Positions 1,890-42,422 of a stretch of DNA of 64,000 nucleotides are shown here, piece after piece. The notes below the pieces were generated by a model, which was given only the letters and a program-made list of their open reading frames with translations, was not told where the DNA came from and did not search any database. Source of the stretch: Candidatus Poribacteria bacterium (GTDB lineage: Bacteria; Poribacteria; WGA-4E; WGA-3G); contig JAPPFM010000030.1 in assembly GCA_028821605.1 (NCBI GenBank), positions 1 through 64,000 of the forward strand. Reading direction: 5' to 3'. Made by a program: the position numbers and the translations under genes. How positions within the stretch are numbered: the first letter of the stretch is position 1; each line of letters begins with the position of its first letter.

Positions 1890-3131
1890 GTGAATTCTTT
1901 TCCAAAACGCGTAAGCCCAAGCATCGCGCCGGGCGAGTCTACGGAAAGGGACATAAAAATCCCAACCCATCCCACCGAACCGCAAGGAAAATTAGAAAGA
2001 CTTGAATGTAGCAAGTGTGGTGAAACGTATCCGCACACGGTGCCGCAGAACGTCTGTACCGCTTGCGGGAAACCGCTACTTGCCCGTTACGCGCTTGAAC
2101 AGGTGGCAGAGACGTGGAAAAGAGACACACTTCTGTCAAGACCCGCCTCGCTCTGGCGTTATCGGGAACTCCTGCCTATATCTGACCCAAAAAACATAGT
2201 AACGCTTGGCGAAACGATGACCCCGCTCATCCATGCAAAAAGATTGGGAGCAGAGTTTGGACTCACACAGGTGTGGGTGAAGGACGAATCTCGGTTGCCT
2301 ACTGGAAGTTTTAAGGCGCGCGGCTTAGCGATGGCGGTATCCAAGGCGAAGGCACTCGGATTAACACAGTTAGCCATCCCATCCGCCGGTAACGCGGCGA
2401 CTGCCCTCGCTGTTTATGCTGCTGCCGCAGGTATAACCGCCCATATCTTTATGCCTCAGGATACACCTGCCTTCAACAAAGAGACGTGTCAACTTGCTGG
2501 TGCAAATGTCACACTGATCGACGGTTTAATTACTGATGCAGGCAAAATTGTAGCGGAACGAAAAGAGCGCGAAGGGTGGTTTGACGTGTCAACGCTCAAA
2601 GAGCCGTACCGCGTAGAGGGGAAAAAAACAATGGGATTTGAGCTCGCTGAGCAGTTCGGGTGGGAGTTACCGGATGTTATTATCTATCCTACCGGCGGCG
2701 GCACGGGCATCGTCGGGATGTGGAAAGGCTTTGCGGAGTTAGAAGCGATCGGTTGGATCGGGAAGAAGAGACCGCGATTCATCTCTGTGCAGTCAGCAGG
2801 ATGTGCACCGATCGTTAAGGCGTGGGAAGAGGGGGCTACTGAAGCGACCCCGTGGCGCGACGCAAATACCGTTGCGAGCGGTTTACGGGTGCCACAGGCA
2901 ATCGGCGATTTTCTTATTCTGGAGGCGATTCGTAAAAGCAACGGTGCCGCGATTGCTGTCACAGACGATGCCATCCGTGAATCAATGCAATTGCTCCCTA
3001 CAACCGAAGGACTTTTGACGTGTCCTGAAGGGGCAGCAACGGTCGCGGCACTCGAACAACTTGTCGCGAACGGGATGGTTGAAGCCTCCGAACGCGTTGT
3101 ACTTTTCAATACAGGCGGTTACCAATCATAA
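1890..3131 (+). CDS. thrC: Threonine synthase
   Basis: A 413-residue fold-type II PLP enzyme, expected to convert O-phosphohomoserine to threonine in the cytoplasm. An N-terminal zinc-ribbon-like stretch (CSKCGETYPH and CTACGKPL, about residues 38-60) is typical of one threonine synthase subgroup. The PLP lysine is in GSFKARG (K142), and the phosphate-binding glycine stretch YPTGGGTGIVG follows. The start is a GTG at 1890, chosen for the GGAAGGA ribosome site 7 bases upstream. It could share a transcript with the carbamoyltransferase gene. The zinc ribbon argues against threonine dehydratase, the nearest alternative. Confidence 0.88.
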   Translation: MNSFPKRVSPSIAPGESTERDIKIPTHPTEPQGKLERLECSKCGETYPHTVPQNVCTACGKPLLARYALEQVAETWKRDTLLSRPASLWRYRELLPISDPKNIVTLGETMTPLIHAKRLGAEFGLTQVWVKDESRLPTGSFKARGLAMAVSKAKALGLTQLAIPSAGNAATALAVYAAAAGITAHIFMPQDTPAFNKETCQLAGANVTLIDGLITDAGKIVAERKEREGWFDVSTLKEPYRVEGKKTMGFELAEQFGWELPDVIIYPTGGGTGIVGMWKGFAELEAIGWIGKKRPRFISVQSAGCAPIVKAWEEGATEATPWRDANTVASGLRVPQAIGDFLILEAIRKSNGAAIAVTDDAIRESMQLLPTTEGLLTCPEGAATVAALEQLVANGMVEASERVVLFNTGGYQS

Positions 3132-36443: not shown

Positions 36444-37247
36444 TTATTCAGCTTTCTTCCCAAAGTGAATTGCAACGATTCCGAAAGTTTTTCGATAATA
36501 CTGTACATCTGTCAATCCACACTGCTCCATCACCGTTTTCAGCGCATCGCAATTCGGAAATTTCATAACTGAACGGGGGAGATACCCGTACGCATCGTCT
36601 TTGTTACGTGAGATTAAGTTCCCCACGAAGGGTAATATCTTTGTAAAATAGAAATAGTAAAGACTCCGAAATAGTGGATTCACGGGTTGTGTAAACTCTA
36701 AGATAACGACCCGACCTCCCGGCGCGGCAACGCGTGTCATCTCACGTATCCCCATCTCTAAATCTACAACGTTCCGAATGCCGAAGCCTACAGAGACGAC
36801 ATCGAAAGTATCGTCCAAAAAGGGCAGAATGAGGGTATCCGCTGCCAGGAAACGGGGGCTGGCAGAAGGGGTTGGAAGGAGGGAAGGCGTTGGACTGGAA
36901 GGATGGAAAGGTGGAAGGTTGGGGTCCCCATCCTTCCCTTCTTCCATCCTTCCTCTCTTTTGTTCCCCTCTTCCAGTTCCGACTTTCTGATTTCCGATAA
37001 CGAGCATCTCGAAGCAGAAATCTGAACCGATGACAAAACCCTCCGCCCCAATTTTGTCCGAGTATGCAAGGGCAAGTTCACCCGTCCCTGTACAGACATC
37101 TAACACCTTGCTCGCTGTTTTGACATCACTGACCTTGACGGTTTCGTGTCGCCAACTTTTGTCGCGTTTGAGACTTAGCAATGTGTTGAGAAAATCGTAA
37201 TGACGCGCGATGACAGAAAATAAATTTTTTATCCTGTCTGCTTGCAT
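36444..37247 (-). CDS. ubiE: UbiE/MenG-type quinone methyltransferase with an in-frame repeat insert
   Basis: A 267-residue SAM methyltransferase for the C-methylation step of menaquinone or ubiquinone. FSVIARHYDFLNTLLSLKRD at the N-terminus, the SAM motif LDVCTGTGELAL, VSVGFGIRNV and the C-terminal KTFGIVAIHFGKK are all family hallmarks. A proline- and charge-rich stretch of about 42 residues (KVGTGRGEQKRGRMEEG to SASP) interrupts the core after the acidic-loop helix. It is encoded by a palindromic repeat. The ATG at 37247 is four bases after the pheT stop and is preferred to the longer frame overlapping pheT. It is probably part of the pheST transcript. Confidence 0.87.
   Translation of the reverse strand: MQADRIKNLFSVIARHYDFLNTLLSLKRDKSWRHETVKVSDVKTASKVLDVCTGTGELALAYSDKIGAEGFVIGSDFCFEMLVIGNQKVGTGRGEQKRGRMEEGKDGDPNLPPFHPSSPTPSLLPTPSASPRFLAADTLILPFLDDTFDVVSVGFGIRNVVDLEMGIREMTRVAAPGGRVVILEFTQPVNPLFRSLYYFYFTKILPFVGNLISRNKDDAYGYLPRSVMKFPNCDALKTVMEQCGLTDVQYYRKTFGIVAIHFGKKAE
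36855..36985. repeat. Purine/pyrimidine palindrome inserted in frame in ubiE
   Basis: On the plus strand a GA-rich arm (ctggaaggatggaaaggtgg onward, 36895-36923) faces a CT-rich arm (ccccatccttcccttcttcc onward, 36925-36953) around a GGGGTCCCC centre. Weaker GA/CT arms lie outside. The whole lies inside ubiE and keeps the frame. A similar GA/CT element occurs inside the ABC ATPase gene at 51066-51183. Confidence 0.7.
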
Positions 37248-37251
37248 AACC

Positions 37252-39705
37252 CTACATCCGTAGTTCCGCACCAAGTTCCTGATTGAGACGTTCAACAACC
37301 TTGTCGTGAAGGGCATTGACGGCTTTGTCTGTCAAGGTTTCGGTTGCGGAATGATAGGTGATAGTATAAGCGAGACTCTTCTTCCCTTCCGGGACCTGTT
37401 CCCCCTCATAAACGTCGAACAGACGAACCGACTCTACTACATCTCCACCGGTCGCATAGATAAGTTCTGTTGGCATATCTGATAATATCTCCTTATCCAC
37501 AACAATCGCAAGATCTCGTGCGACCTTCGGATAGATGGAGATTGGCTCGAAACGTTTGGTAAACACTGCAATGTCTACCAAGCCTTCAAGGTCGAATTCA
37601 AAGAGATACGCCTTATACGGTAGGTCATAATTTTCGAGAACCTGTGGATGTGCTTCTCCGAAAGTACCGAGTTGTCTATCCCCTAATAGCACCGCTGCAT
37701 TTCTACCTGGATGGAAGGTTGGTGTGTCTGCTTTCTGCAGGGTGTAATCGGCAATACCGCACACTTCGAGTATTCCTTCCACGAGACCTTTGATGTCGAA
37801 GAAATCCGGTTGTCGATACGGGTTGCTGTAGATGCCTTCGCCAATCTGTCCGGCGAGGATACCTGTAACGCGCTCCGGTTCAAGAGACGCGATTCGGAGA
37901 TCGCTTCTACCGTTTTGGTTATTATGAATGAAAACACTTCCTATTTCAAAGAGTGCGATAGTATCTATTTGGTGATTGCGGTTGTGTTGTGCGTTCTCCA
38001 GTAGACTTGGCAGCAATGTTGTACGAAGCACCGACATCTCTGGACTCAAGGGGTTTCGCAACTTTACGGTATCGCGAAGCGGATCATTCGCATTCAACCG
38101 AATTTTGTCAAAGCAGTTGGGATCACAAAAACTGTAGTTCACCGCCTCCATCATTCCGGCAGCGAGGAGAAAACGCTTTATACGGTTGTGGACTTCTGTC
38201 TTTGGGTTCGGCGGTGGTACCGGAATATCGCCTTTGGGCAGTGTTGTCGGGATATTGTCGTAACCGTAGACCCGCGCGATTTCCTCAATGAGGTCGATTT
38301 CGCGAGTAAGGTCTGACCTGAACGTCGGTACAGTGACCTGATAAACATCTCCTGAAGTTTCTACATCAAAGTCGAGACGATTCAAAATCTGCACCATTTC
38401 CGCCGTTTCAATTGTAGTCCCTAATATGAAATTGACGCGTTCGGGACGCAGTTGAATTCGGGTTAAGGGCTGCTGCCCCGGGTAGACATCAACAGCACCT
38501 TCACAGACAGTGCCACCTGCCAACTCAGCGATGAGTTGCGCTGCGCGGTCGAGGGCAGCGATGACTACGCCCGGATCGGCACCACGTTCAAATCTGTAGG
38601 AGGCTTCCGTGCTTATTCCCAACGCTTTTGCGGTAGCACGAACACTTGACGGATTAAAATAAGCACTCTCCAATAGGACATCACAGGTCGTTTCTGTGAT
38701 CTCAGAATCGTAGCCACCCATAATTCCAGCAAGTGCGACGGACTTTTCGGCATCAGCGATGACGAGCATATCAGCGGTGAGTTCGCGTTCAACTTCGTCA
38801 AGTGTTGTTAGTTGTTCACCGTCCACTGCGCGGCGCACAACGATACGCCTCAGGGCGCAGCTTGCAAGCCCATATTTAACGGCTGTGAGTTTGTGATAAT
38901 CGAAAGCGTGGAGCGGTTGCCCATATTCCATCAGGACGAAGTTCGTAATATCGACAATGTTGTTAATAACACCGACACCAACAGATTCGAGACGTTGTTG
39001 CAGCCATGCAGGGGATTCTCCAACTTTAATACCTTGAATGACGCGTGCTGCGTAACGCGGGCAGAGATCTGGCGCGTCGATTGTCACAGAGGTTAGTTCT
39101 TGGATATCAGTTTCACTTTCCTTCAGATCAACAGATGGAAGTTTTAAGGGATTTCCGGTTTCCGCTCGGATTTCGCGAGCGATACCGATCAGACTGAGGC
39201 AATCGGGACGGTTAGGAGTAATTTCAAGTTCAAACACAACATCGTCCAATCTGAGAGCCTCTGAGAGCGGTGTACCAAGAGGTGTATCTGCTGGCAATTC
39301 CATTAAACCGGCTGCATCGTCGGAGAGTCCTAACTCCTTTTCAGAGCAGAGCATTCCTTGCGAAGTTTCGCCACGCAGTTTGGCGCGTTTGATTGTTAAA
39401 CCGATGGGCAGTGTCGCCCCGATTGTAGCGACGGGGGCAAGCATGCCCTCTCGGACGTTCGGTGCCCCGCAAACGATCTGGAGTTCTTCCACCTCGCCAA
39501 CATCTACCTGACAAAGAACAAGTTTGTCAGCATTTGGATGTGGTCGAATAGAGGAAACACTGCCGACGACGACACCTTCAAGTCCAGCACCGAGCTGCTT
39601 GATGGATTCAACCTCAATCCCTAACATTGTGAGTCGGTCAGCGAGTTCGCTTGGAGAAAGGTCAAAGTCGATGTAAGTTTTAAGCCAATTCAGGGTTACG
39701 TTCAT
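37252..39705 (-). CDS. pheT: Phenylalanyl-tRNA synthetase beta subunit
   Basis: An 817-residue PheT. MNVTLNWLKTYIDFDLSPSELADRL starts the protein, followed by the tRNA-binding EMAP-like domain (residues about 40-150), B3/B4, B5 (RAAQLIAELAGG onward), the class-II-like core and a C-terminal FDX-ACB anticodon domain (VYEGEQVPEGKKSLAYTI). In complex with PheS it charges tRNA-Phe. Between HAFDYHKL and RIVVRRAVDGE about a dozen residues (TAVKYGLASCALR) are extra compared with usual PheT; their DNA is an interspersed repeat. It follows pheS with a 72-base gap and precedes ubiE. Confidence 0.95.
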   Translation of the reverse strand: MNVTLNWLKTYIDFDLSPSELADRLTMLGIEVESIKQLGAGLEGVVVGSVSSIRPHPNADKLVLCQVDVGEVEELQIVCGAPNVREGMLAPVATIGATLPIGLTIKRAKLRGETSQGMLCSEKELGLSDDAAGLMELPADTPLGTPLSEALRLDDVVFELEITPNRPDCLSLIGIAREIRAETGNPLKLPSVDLKESETDIQELTSVTIDAPDLCPRYAARVIQGIKVGESPAWLQQRLESVGVGVINNIVDITNFVLMEYGQPLHAFDYHKLTAVKYGLASCALRRIVVRRAVDGEQLTTLDEVERELTADMLVIADAEKSVALAGIMGGYDSEITETTCDVLLESAYFNPSSVRATAKALGISTEASYRFERGADPGVVIAALDRAAQLIAELAGGTVCEGAVDVYPGQQPLTRIQLRPERVNFILGTTIETAEMVQILNRLDFDVETSGDVYQVTVPTFRSDLTREIDLIEEIARVYGYDNIPTTLPKGDIPVPPPNPKTEVHNRIKRFLLAAGMMEAVNYSFCDPNCFDKIRLNANDPLRDTVKLRNPLSPEMSVLRTTLLPSLLENAQHNRNHQIDTIALFEIGSVFIHNNQNGRSDLRIASLEPERVTGILAGQIGEGIYSNPYRQPDFFDIKGLVEGILEVCGIADYTLQKADTPTFHPGRNAAVLLGDRQLGTFGEAHPQVLENYDLPYKAYLFEFDLEGLVDIAVFTKRFEPISIYPKVARDLAIVVDKEILSDMPTELIYATGGDVVESVRLFDVYEGEQVPEGKKSLAYTITYHSATETLTDKAVNALHDKVVERLNQELGAELRM
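38846..38880. repeat. 'gcttgcaagc' repeat copy inserted in frame in pheT
   Basis: The text gggcgcagcttgcaagccca then tattt closely matches copies in the infC leader (42441-42515) and just upstream of the endonuclease IV gene (45575-45640). Here it adds about 12 codons to pheT without breaking the frame. Confidence 0.65.
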
Positions 39706-39777: not shown

Positions 39778-40794
39778 TTAGAACTGGCGGAGGAAACGGA
39801 GGTCGTTCTCATAGAGGGTGCGGATGTCCGGGATGCGGAATTGGAGATTTGCGAGCCTCTCCACTCCCATACCGAAGGCGAACCCCGTTACTTGCTCTGG
39901 GTCGTAGTTCACGGCTTCAAATACCGATGGATCGACGGCACCTGCTCCCAATATTTCAACCCATCCTGTACCGCCGCAACTCCGACACCCTTTTCCTTGA
40001 CAGACGGCACAGGAAATGTCCATCTCCGCGCTCGGTTCTGTAAAAGGAAAGAAATGGGGGCGGAATCGCATCTGTGTTTGGTCACCGAACATCTGACGGG
40101 CAAACGAGGTCAGAATCCCCTTTAGGTCACTAAAGGTGGCGTGCTTGTCCACGAGGAGACCTTCTACCTGATGGAACATCGGCGTGTGTGAGACATCATA
40201 ATCTACACGATAGCATTTCCCCGGCACGATAATTCGGACGGGTGGTTTCTGATTTTCCATGGTGCGGATCTGGACAGGCGAGGTATGGGTACGTAACAGG
40301 TGTCCGTCCATTAGGTAAAAGGTATCATGTAAGTCGCGAGCCGGATGATCGGCGGGTGTGTTCAAGGCATCGAAGTTGTAATATTCGGTCTCAATGTCTG
40401 GTCCTGTCACCACTTCAAACCCCATTTGGCGGAAAATCGCCTCAATTCGCTCCAGAGTTTGCATCACGGGGTGTGCTTTCCCGTAGGCAGGCTTTCGTCC
40501 GGGAAGCGTGATGTCAACGGCTTCCGCCTCAAGCTGCTGTTCCTGTTGTTGGCGATCCAATGCCTGCTTTGCCGCTTGATACGCTTCTGTGAGCGTAGCA
40601 CGGACCTCATTTGCAAGTTTGCCGATCTCTGGGCGCTCCTCTGCGGAAAGCGTTTTTATTCCTTTGCTGACCTCGGTTAGTTTACTTCTGGGTCCAAGAT
40701 AGGTAATTCGGAACGATTCAAGCTCGTCCGATGTTTGCACCGATTTCAAAGCTTCAAGAGCCTCTGCTTGAATCGCTTGTAATTCTACTTTCAT
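39778..40794 (-). CDS. pheS: Phenylalanyl-tRNA synthetase alpha subunit
   Basis: A 338-residue PheS. The N-terminal coiled coil (residues 1-90) is followed by the class II core: HPVMQTLERIEAIFRQMGFEV, HPARDLHDTFYL, the Phe-pocket and motif 2 region RVDYDVSHTPMFHQVEGLL, and the C-terminal FGMGVERLANLQF. An internal zinc-ribbon-like CxxC pair (CAVCQGKGCRSCGG) occurs in the segment before the end, as in a number of bacterial PheS. The start ATG follows AAGGA by 11 bases. It is preceded by a phenylalanine T-box leader. Confidence 0.95.
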   Translation of the reverse strand: MKVELQAIQAEALEALKSVQTSDELESFRITYLGPRSKLTEVSKGIKTLSAEERPEIGKLANEVRATLTEAYQAAKQALDRQQQEQQLEAEAVDITLPGRKPAYGKAHPVMQTLERIEAIFRQMGFEVVTGPDIETEYYNFDALNTPADHPARDLHDTFYLMDGHLLRTHTSPVQIRTMENQKPPVRIIVPGKCYRVDYDVSHTPMFHQVEGLLVDKHATFSDLKGILTSFARQMFGDQTQMRFRPHFFPFTEPSAEMDISCAVCQGKGCRSCGGTGWVEILGAGAVDPSVFEAVNYDPEQVTGFAFGMGVERLANLQFRIPDIRTLYENDLRFLRQF

Positions 40795-40832
40795 ATTTTT
40801 AATTTTCCTTTAACCAACAACTGACGACCATA

Positions 40833-40893
40833 AAAAAACGCCTATCACTTCGCTCCATAAGGATTGATTTCCTTATGGGGACGAAAGCGATAG
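40833..40893 (-). terminator. Rho-independent terminator of the pheS T-box leader
   Basis: On the minus strand CTATCGCTTTCG and CCATAAGG arms fold back on CCTTATGG and GCGAAGTGATAG, followed by GCG and seven T residues. It ends about 38 bases before the pheS start codon, and its left arm is where the competing antiterminator would form. Confidence 0.88.
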
Positions 40894-41070
40894 ACATCTA
40901 CTTCCGCGGTACCACCCCGCTTGACAGATTCATGGAATCTGTCCGCTTCATTATTTCTTTTCAAACAGCTCCAGGATGAAATTCAGTAGTTGCTCTCAAA
41001 ACCGTGCTTCCAGCCGATGACACGGTCTCTCTGGTTGAGAGATCTCAACTACTTACATAGGTCCCTTCGT
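40833..41070 (-). promoter_or_regulatory. T-box leader (tRNA-Phe responsive) upstream of pheS
   Basis: On the minus strand the leader runs from the AGTAGTTG...CAACTACT stem (about 41052 to 40983) through a specifier region GAATTTCATCC, with the Phe codon UUC at 40980-40978. The T-box sequence GGTGGTACCGCGG lies at 40916-40904, and the terminator follows. Uncharged tRNA-Phe would pair its anticodon with UUC and its NCCA end with the T-box, favouring antitermination and pheST expression. All three landmarks are in the correct order and spacing. Confidence 0.88.
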
Positions 41071-41125
41071 AGCTTTTTATGTATTAATTCGTTACGATAT
41101 GCAAATTAACGGCAGTTGTGTTAGC

Positions 41126-41473
41126 CTACCCTTTTGCGAGGGTAACAAGCTGCCCGAAACCAGCCTCGTCATTCACTGCGATGTCGGCGAGGACTTTTCG
41201 ATCCAGTTCAATACCGGCGGTTTTGAGTCCATGGATAAACCGGCTATAGGTGAGTCCGTGCAATCTGGCGGCGGCGTTAATCCTTGCAATCCAAAGTCGC
41301 CGAAAATCGCGTTTCCGTGCACGTCTATGTGCGTAGGCGTGGTTCCAACCTTTCTCTACCGCTTCTTTAGCGGTTCGCTTGAGGTTATTCCTGCCCCCGC
41401 GATAGCCTTTGGAATGCTTAAGTATCCGGCTACGGCGTTTACGGCGGACACTCCCTGTTTTTACTCGTGCCAT
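41126..41473 (-). CDS. rplT: 50S ribosomal protein L20
   Basis: A 115-residue L20 protein, essential for early 50S assembly. [19 protein letters not shown] at the start, [18 protein letters not shown], and [20 protein letters not shown] are diagnostic. In many bacteria L20 also represses its own operon through the leader mRNA. It is the third gene of infC-rpmI-rplT, ending about 56 bases before the pheS T-box begins, so the ribosomal genes and pheST are probably controlled separately. Confidence 0.96.
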
Positions 41474-41561: not shown

Positions 41562-41756
41562 TTATTTATGAATGAGGCGTTTCAAACGTTTCTCGTTGCT
41601 GGGATCAACAAGGGTTGCTTGTCGCAGTCTGCGTTTGCGCTTTGCTGATTTTGAAATGAACAGGTGTCCTGCGTATGCGCGCTTGCGACGAATTCTACCT
41701 TTCGACGTGAATTTGAAACGTTTCGCTGCGCCTTTATGCGTTTTCATTTTCGGCAT
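41562..41756 (-). CDS. rpmI: 50S ribosomal protein L35
   Basis: A 64-residue L35 with the typical MPKMKTHKGAAKRFKFTSKG start and basic tail (RLKRLIHK). It lies between infC and rplT, 88 bases before rplT, in the canonical order. A hairpin (CCCCGTAA...TTATACGGGG) lies in the 120-base infC-rpmI gap and could be a regulatory stem, though no L20 site was confirmed. Confidence 0.95.
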   Translation of the reverse strand: MPKMKTHKGAAKRFKFTSKGRIRRKRAYAGHLFISKSAKRKRRLRQATLVDPSNEKRLKRLIHK

Positions 41757-41876: not shown

Positions 41877-42422
41877 TTACGCAGATTTCGGTGCGAGGAT
41901 CATTGACATGATGCGGGTTTCCAAGCGTGGTGGTTGTTCCACATCAGCAATTTCTTCCAGATCGTCTTTGAGGCGTGCAAGTAAATTCTTGCCAAGCTCG
42001 GTATGGAGCATCTCACGTCCCCGAAACCGGACAGTCGCGCGAACCTTCCAGCCGTTTTTTAGGAAATCCTCAACGTGCCGCTTTTTGAACTGGTAGTCGT
42101 GTTCAGCAGTATCTGGACGGAACTGCATCCCTTTCAGGACCACCTTCGTCTGTTTCTTTCGAGCCTCACGAGCGCGTTTGTTTTTCTCATACTGATACTT
42201 CCCGTAATCCATAATCTTACAAACCGGCGGGGTGGCGTTCGGTGAAACCTCGACCAAATCCAATCCAACCTCTTCGGCAAGTTTCATGGCATCGCGGGGA
42301 GACATGACTCCCAACTGCTTGTTCTCGTGATCTATCAGTAAGATTTCCTTAGCTCGAATCTGATAATTAGAACGACTCTGTCTTTCCTTCGTCCTCTGTG
42401 TACGTCTGCCTTTGTAGTGTAT
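41877..42422 (-). CDS. infC: Translation initiation factor IF-3, probable AUA start
   Basis: A 181-residue IF-3 if started at the ATA at 42422-42420. From the first in-frame ATG (42314) the protein would lack the conserved N-terminal stretch QIRAKEILLIDHENKQLG, which is plainly encoded upstream in the same frame. That frame has no ATG or GTG before a TGA stop, and its only TTG falls inside the conserved stretch. An ATA lies six bases after GGGGGTG, a strong ribosome site. The deduced N-terminus HYKGRRTQR has the basic layout seen in E. coli IF-3, whose gene starts at AUU. Non-AUG starts are how IF-3 limits its own synthesis. The C-terminal domain (DTAEHDYQFKKRHVEDFL) is normal. Confidence 0.88.
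   Translation of the reverse strand: MHYKGRRTQRTKERQSRSNYQIRAKEILLIDHENKQLGVMSPRDAMKLAEEVGLDLVEVSPNATPPVCKIMDYGKYQYEKNKRAREARKKQTKVVLKGMQFRPDTAEHDYQFKKRHVEDFLKNGWKVRATVRFRGREMLHTELGKNLLARLKDDLEEIADVEQPPRLETRIMSMILAPKSA

Follow-up and report, generated by a model that had tools for sequence, protein, structure and literature searches.

The leader that separates rplT from pheS in the window (the whole analysed stretch of Candidatus Poribacteria DNA, 64,000 nucleotides long) is very probably a working T-box riboswitch, i.e., a transcription attenuator that responds to tRNA-Phe, and comparison with its relatives suggests, with clearly less certainty, that a lineage of Poribacteria runs such a Phe T-box without Stem II despite its A/U-rich UUC:GAA duplex. 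This transcriptional T-box leader occupies positions 41079-40832 of the minus strand. The elements named in the original prediction (Stem I, the UUC specifier, the T-box sequence and a rival terminator with a run of T) are all present on this strand, and pheS lies downstream, as had been proposed, with its start at 40794; pheS-pheT follow the leader directly. The coordinates given there were nearly right, the full element being 40832-41079, while neither the missing Stem II nor the infC-rpmI-rplT-pheST setting had been noticed. The parts of the leader and its neighbouring genes are as follows:

40967..41074, minus strand: Stem I, long form with distal elbow-binding loops (RF00230 alignment; covarying helices 1-5, 28 relatives)
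40978..40980, minus strand: specifier UUC (Phe), followed by A (GAA[A/T]UUC is invariant in poribacterial pheS leaders)
40944..40966, minus strand: A-rich linker of 23 nt, GUUUGAAAAGAAAUAAUGAAGCG, which replaces Stem II and the IIA/B pseudoknot
40923..40943, minus strand: Stem III (helix 6; 4/8 pairs changed on both sides)
40877..40918, minus strand: antiterminator, helices A1 GGGG/CCCC and A2 GCGGA/UUCGU (RF00230 alignment; helices 7-8 invariant in 28/28)
40908..40914, minus strand: T-box bulge UGGUACC, whose UGGU complements ACCA of tRNA-Phe (A73 and CCA)
40832..40895, minus strand: intrinsic terminator hairpin and seven U (fold -34.4 kcal/mol; pairing counts)
39778..40794, minus strand: pheS, phenylalanyl-tRNA synthetase alpha (Pfam PF01409, E 1.5e-100)
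37252..39705, minus strand: pheT, phenylalanyl-tRNA synthetase beta (Pfam PF17759, PF03483)
41126..41473, minus strand: rplT, ribosomal protein L20, the upstream gene (Pfam PF00453; its place next to pheS is conserved phylum-wide)
41562..41756, minus strand: rpmI, ribosomal protein L35 (open reading frame list, sequence and position; assigned by eye)
41877..42314, minus strand: infC, IF-3, whose true start may be further upstream (Pfam PF00707, PF05198)

The T-box core reads GGGGTGGTACCGCGG, and Stem III is flanked by AAGCG and AA, which by comparison with PMC7583486 represent the purine-string motif. The terminator hairpin extends from 40895 to 40840, with seven U behind it at 40838-40832. 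Within the 5' arm of this hairpin lie the 3' strands of both A1 and A2, and since the strand CGUCCCC is common to antiterminator and terminator, the two folds are mutually exclusive. The sequence AAAGGA is found 11 nt upstream of the pheS start, and all genes in the order infC-rpmI-rplT-[T-box]-pheS-pheT run in one direction. A promoter scan of the minus strand from infC to pheS, which was uninformative, returned no promoter-like site, and the T-box terminator was missing from the output of the terminator scan, presumably as its stem exceeds the 20 pairs counted. At 36444-37316 of the window, a ubiE-like methyltransferase gene with a low-complexity insertion (GRGEQKRGRMEEGKDGDPNLPPFHPSSPTPSLLPTPSASPRF) overlaps the 3' end of pheT.

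When searched in 501 bases, the leader was aligned to RF00230 at 41079-40874, with the model covered end to end (1-219), 79.7 bits and E 1e-17, and a whole-genome search with the same model returned the same leader at E 2.9e-17. The family match that the original prediction had named as its check was therefore obtained, though below the Rfam gathering score for RF00230 (93 bits), and because of this cut-off the default Rfam scan with the curated gathering score does not list the leader. The low score is consistent with the missing Stem II, as relatives that keep Stem II mostly score higher, and a chance match is excluded by the E-value together with the conservation in 28 aligned relatives. 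Among the characters that define the T-box family, the model match, the specifier, the UGGN bulge, mutually exclusive antiterminator and terminator, and a cognate gene were all found, and the specifier, the tRNA match and the gene downstream support its assignment as a genuine phenylalanine T-box. Matches to mir-1 and nos_TCE in the same stretch were attributed to chance or hairpin resemblance, and a pattern match to the T-box core within rplT (TGGAACCACG, translated GWNHAYAHR) was rejected as coding sequence.

The tRNA-Phe of this genome (one good match was found per genome searched) has the anticodon GAA and the discriminator A73, so that both tRNA contact points fit, by UUC:GAA and UGGU:ACCA complementarity. 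Covariation was counted for 44 pairs over 28 aligned relatives without Stem II, where 97.6% of the cells were paired and 18 pairs were changed on both sides, compared with 7.5 +/- 1.7 after shuffling and 1-5 when the pairing was slid by 1-3 columns. Stems I and III covary among these relatives, and no change is seen in the specifier, the T-box bulge, A1 or A2 of any of the 28, diverged as they are. Taken together, such conservation and covariation point to selection for a switch and not to a chance fold.

From this we infer tRNA binding and switching in the following way. RNA polymerase would read through from rplT, or start at a putative promoter of the leader, and transcribe Stem I, which would capture tRNA-Phe by UUC:GAA pairing and by placing its distal loops on the tRNA elbow. 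The ACCA end of an uncharged tRNA would pair with the UGGU bulge and hold the antiterminator (A1 and A2), with pheS-pheT being transcribed, while with a charged tRNA the 3' strands of A1 and A2 would enter the long terminator hairpin and transcription would stop. A single-stranded linker would join Stem I to the discriminator, which is the glyQS-type layout, but with an A/U-rich codon. Counting against such a working switch are the Rfam score under the cut-off, the negative promoter scan of the minus strand between infC and pheS, the view that Stem II is necessary for A/U-rich codons (PMC7583486), and two relatives in which the terminator is present without the sensor, so the sensor is not indispensable everywhere.

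T-boxes were found in 79 of the 85 genomes of the phylum, and in 55 of 56 when only those of good quality are counted. The usual complement is two, Phe (UUC) at pheS and Val (GUC) at ilvB, the specifier register of the pheS leaders reading GUC in poribacterial ilvB leaders; in one genome (locus L121) the ilvB T-box reads AUC (Ile) instead. The search for further T-boxes in the window's own genome, also suggested at the outset, gave a second copy upstream of ilvB (L001, G000:C59:219501-219794, minus strand, 104.9 bits) with a GUC (Val) specifier and with Stem II kept, and the genome has the cognate tRNA-Val(GAC). A further class of Poribacteria has both T-boxes as well (G082: L149, L150), and the rplT-[T-box]-pheS arrangement is kept across families and in that class. 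T-boxes are known mainly from Gram-positive bacteria; the surveys consulted (PMC2494555, PMC3766115) list Firmicutes, Actinobacteria, Chloroflexi, Deinococcus-Thermus and Geobacter-type Deltaproteobacteria, and no paper in the literature searched links T-boxes with Poribacteria, so the predicted extension of the range holds, and phylum-wide. Among individual loci, L054:1313-3000 has a 452-aa open reading frame between the Phe T-box and pheS, which splits the switch from its target, and L052 shows the same kind of upstream sequence. In L010 (G074), a Phe T-box still stands between rplT and pheS although the encoded PheS has diverged strongly (48% identity, branch length 1.71), and pheST may possibly have been replaced there under the old switch.

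PheS and both T-boxes follow the phylum, and descent within it is well supported by these comparisons. As for the ultimate source, we give roughly even chances to the ancestor of the phylum having received just the RNA elements, or these together with ilvB, from a different phylum, and not from the common bacterial ancestor, which concerns the origin only and is compatible with a working switch inherited within the phylum. Acquisition and inheritance scenarios are both found in the literature (PMC3766115), whole-genome searches returned no T-box in the named Hydrogenedentota and Cloacimonadota genomes with the next-closest PheS, and Oleimmundimicrobium-type loci likewise have the order rplT-[Phe T-box]-pheS; the T-box RNA tree, however, where the Phe and Val groups separate and cohere and the deep forks are weak, is too short to place the origin. 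The loci with this order (L065, L066 and L069, labelled Oleimmundimicrobium or Actinomycetota) have a variant core, GGUGGUAACGCGG. Another phylum, that of G095 (L012, L278, L279, L280), has about one T-box per genome (24/31), which at each of these four loci lies upstream of leuA and has the specifier CUC (Leu).

Regarding classification, the window leader has neither a Stem II with an S-turn nor a IIA/B pseudoknot, as class I would have, only the 23-nt linker; a long Stem I with a linker in place of Stem II is the class II (glyQS-type) layout, while the specifier UUC (Phe) departs from the glycine specificity by which class II is defined (PMC10482949). In homologous leaders from other families, the linker site is occupied by roughly 100 nt or more, with an S-turn and a CCGUUA motif, and Stem II with GAAC...AGUAGG and IIA/B CCGUUA or a close variant was read in L009, L015, L030, L118, L011, L144, L150 and others. 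Genus g2, a sister within the window's own family (G038/G041; L153, L158), keeps Stem II, whereas Stem II and IIA/B are gone in the window leader and about 40 relatives; the Val T-box of the same genomes retains Stem II. In the PheS tree, the leaders without Stem II cluster together with four loci counted as leaderless (29 rows, SH-aLRT 90), and a clade of 31 rows (support 100) unites this cluster with g2, a pattern best read as a single loss in an ancestor shared by g1 and g3. A short linker hairpin with a CGUUA-like loop is kept in L269 and perhaps also in L264 and L266, which may be intermediates. The linker of L263 contains a mobile-element-like insertion with inverted ends (GGACTTACGCA / TGCATAAGTCC), which suggests that this region tolerates change, and L260, L261 and L262 have such insertions in the Stem III loop; the T-box core is intact in all four. 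On the tRNA side, compensation for the loss was sought, and the tRNA-Phe anticodon loop proved identical between genera with and without Stem II, where only anticodon-stem pairs differ.

According to reviews, class II T-boxes, which have no Stem II, are specific for glycine (PMC10482949), and they can dispense with it owing to their strong GGC:GCC duplex, since only A/U-rich codons make Stem II essential (PMC7583486). The C. acetobutylicum alaS leader (GCU) is a known second case without it (PMC4695836). In a sample of 40 clostridial T-boxes, where absence of Stem II was recognised by eye, it is missing from Gly (L232, L247, L255) and Ala (L231, L244, L254) leaders, and the Phe leaders retain it. 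Since UUC:GAA has a single G-C pair, the window element cuts against the rule on A/U-rich codons. A possible reconciliation is that this rule was drawn from ileS T-boxes with a short Stem I and no elbow contact. A T-box that reads UUC and lacks Stem II looks undescribed in the literature searched, although an earlier mention elsewhere may exist.

If the same rule is followed (PMC7583486), the leader could be a decaying relic that no longer senses tRNA-Phe once Stem II is lost, with only the terminator still mattering as a fixed attenuator between rplT and pheST. In two relatives, L058 (about 2904-3000) and L048 (about 2748-3000), the sensor is indeed lost and the terminator hairpin alone remains between rplT and pheS. 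Nevertheless, about 40 relatives without Stem II have conserved the specifier, the bulge, A1 and A2 and show covariation in Stems I and III, and these are the parts that a relic would lose first, which makes decay improbable; we infer instead that function has persisted without Stem II.

The genome is not that of a Firmicute, as the 27 closest named PheS loci, 78-91% identical, all belong to Candidatus Poribacteria. The alternative in the original prediction, that the element marks a transfer, is not sustained for a recent event, because the T-box is phylum-wide and follows the PheS tree. Clostridium species do have Phe T-boxes before pheS, and their PheS is about 52% identical, but poribacterial PheS (except the long-branch L010) forms one group outside Clostridium with support 93, the T-box stands after rplT here while clostridial rplT either could not be located within 3 kb or is separated by more than 1.2 kb, and two poribacterial classes have the element. 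It is therefore very unlikely that pheS and its T-box were recently transferred together from a Firmicute. A contaminating contig misbinned into a poribacterial genome (the assembly has 60 contigs and an estimated contamination of 3%) is refuted, to the point of having a negligible probability, since dozens of independent assemblies of Poribacteria, among them the single-contig G021, G028 and G004, show this gene order with the T-box.

The inherited, apparently functional leader of the window resembles class I T-boxes (B. subtilis tyrS/pheS type, RF00230) in its long Stem I, specifier, distal loops, Stem III, UGGN bulge, antiterminator/terminator switch and an aminoacyl-tRNA synthetase operon as target, and differs from them in lacking Stem II and the IIA/B pseudoknot, and in its place between rplT and pheS of a phylum that is not Gram-positive. 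With B. subtilis glyQS (class II) and the C. acetobutylicum alaS deletion variant it shares the linker that replaces Stem II and IIA/B; those two read Gly and Ala (GCU) codons, however, whereas the window leader reads the A/U-rich UUC (Phe). In E. coli, pheM, between rplT and pheS, is a leader-peptide attenuator of pheST that works by ribosome stalling on the leader peptide. The place and the job would be the same in the window, with Phe-tRNA supply predicted to set pheST attenuation, but unlike the leader peptide the T-box would bind the tRNA directly. The window element thus belongs to a known family, and its arrangement of domains is apparently undescribed for its specificity.

These results add a candidate phylum outside the Gram-positives with ancestral and nearly universal T-boxes, and they bear on whether T-boxes spread from Firmicutes or have an older origin. 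The default Rfam cut-off overlooks copies without Stem II, as all those recognised in the window's family score below 93 bits. If a Phe T-box does work in this lineage without Stem II, the Stem I elbow contact and the discriminator would suffice, and the accepted role of Stem II, lateral support of weak codons, would not hold in T-boxes whose Stem I is long. Sister genera that differ in Stem II, but have the same specifier, operon and anticodon loop, represent a natural experiment on the role of this domain.
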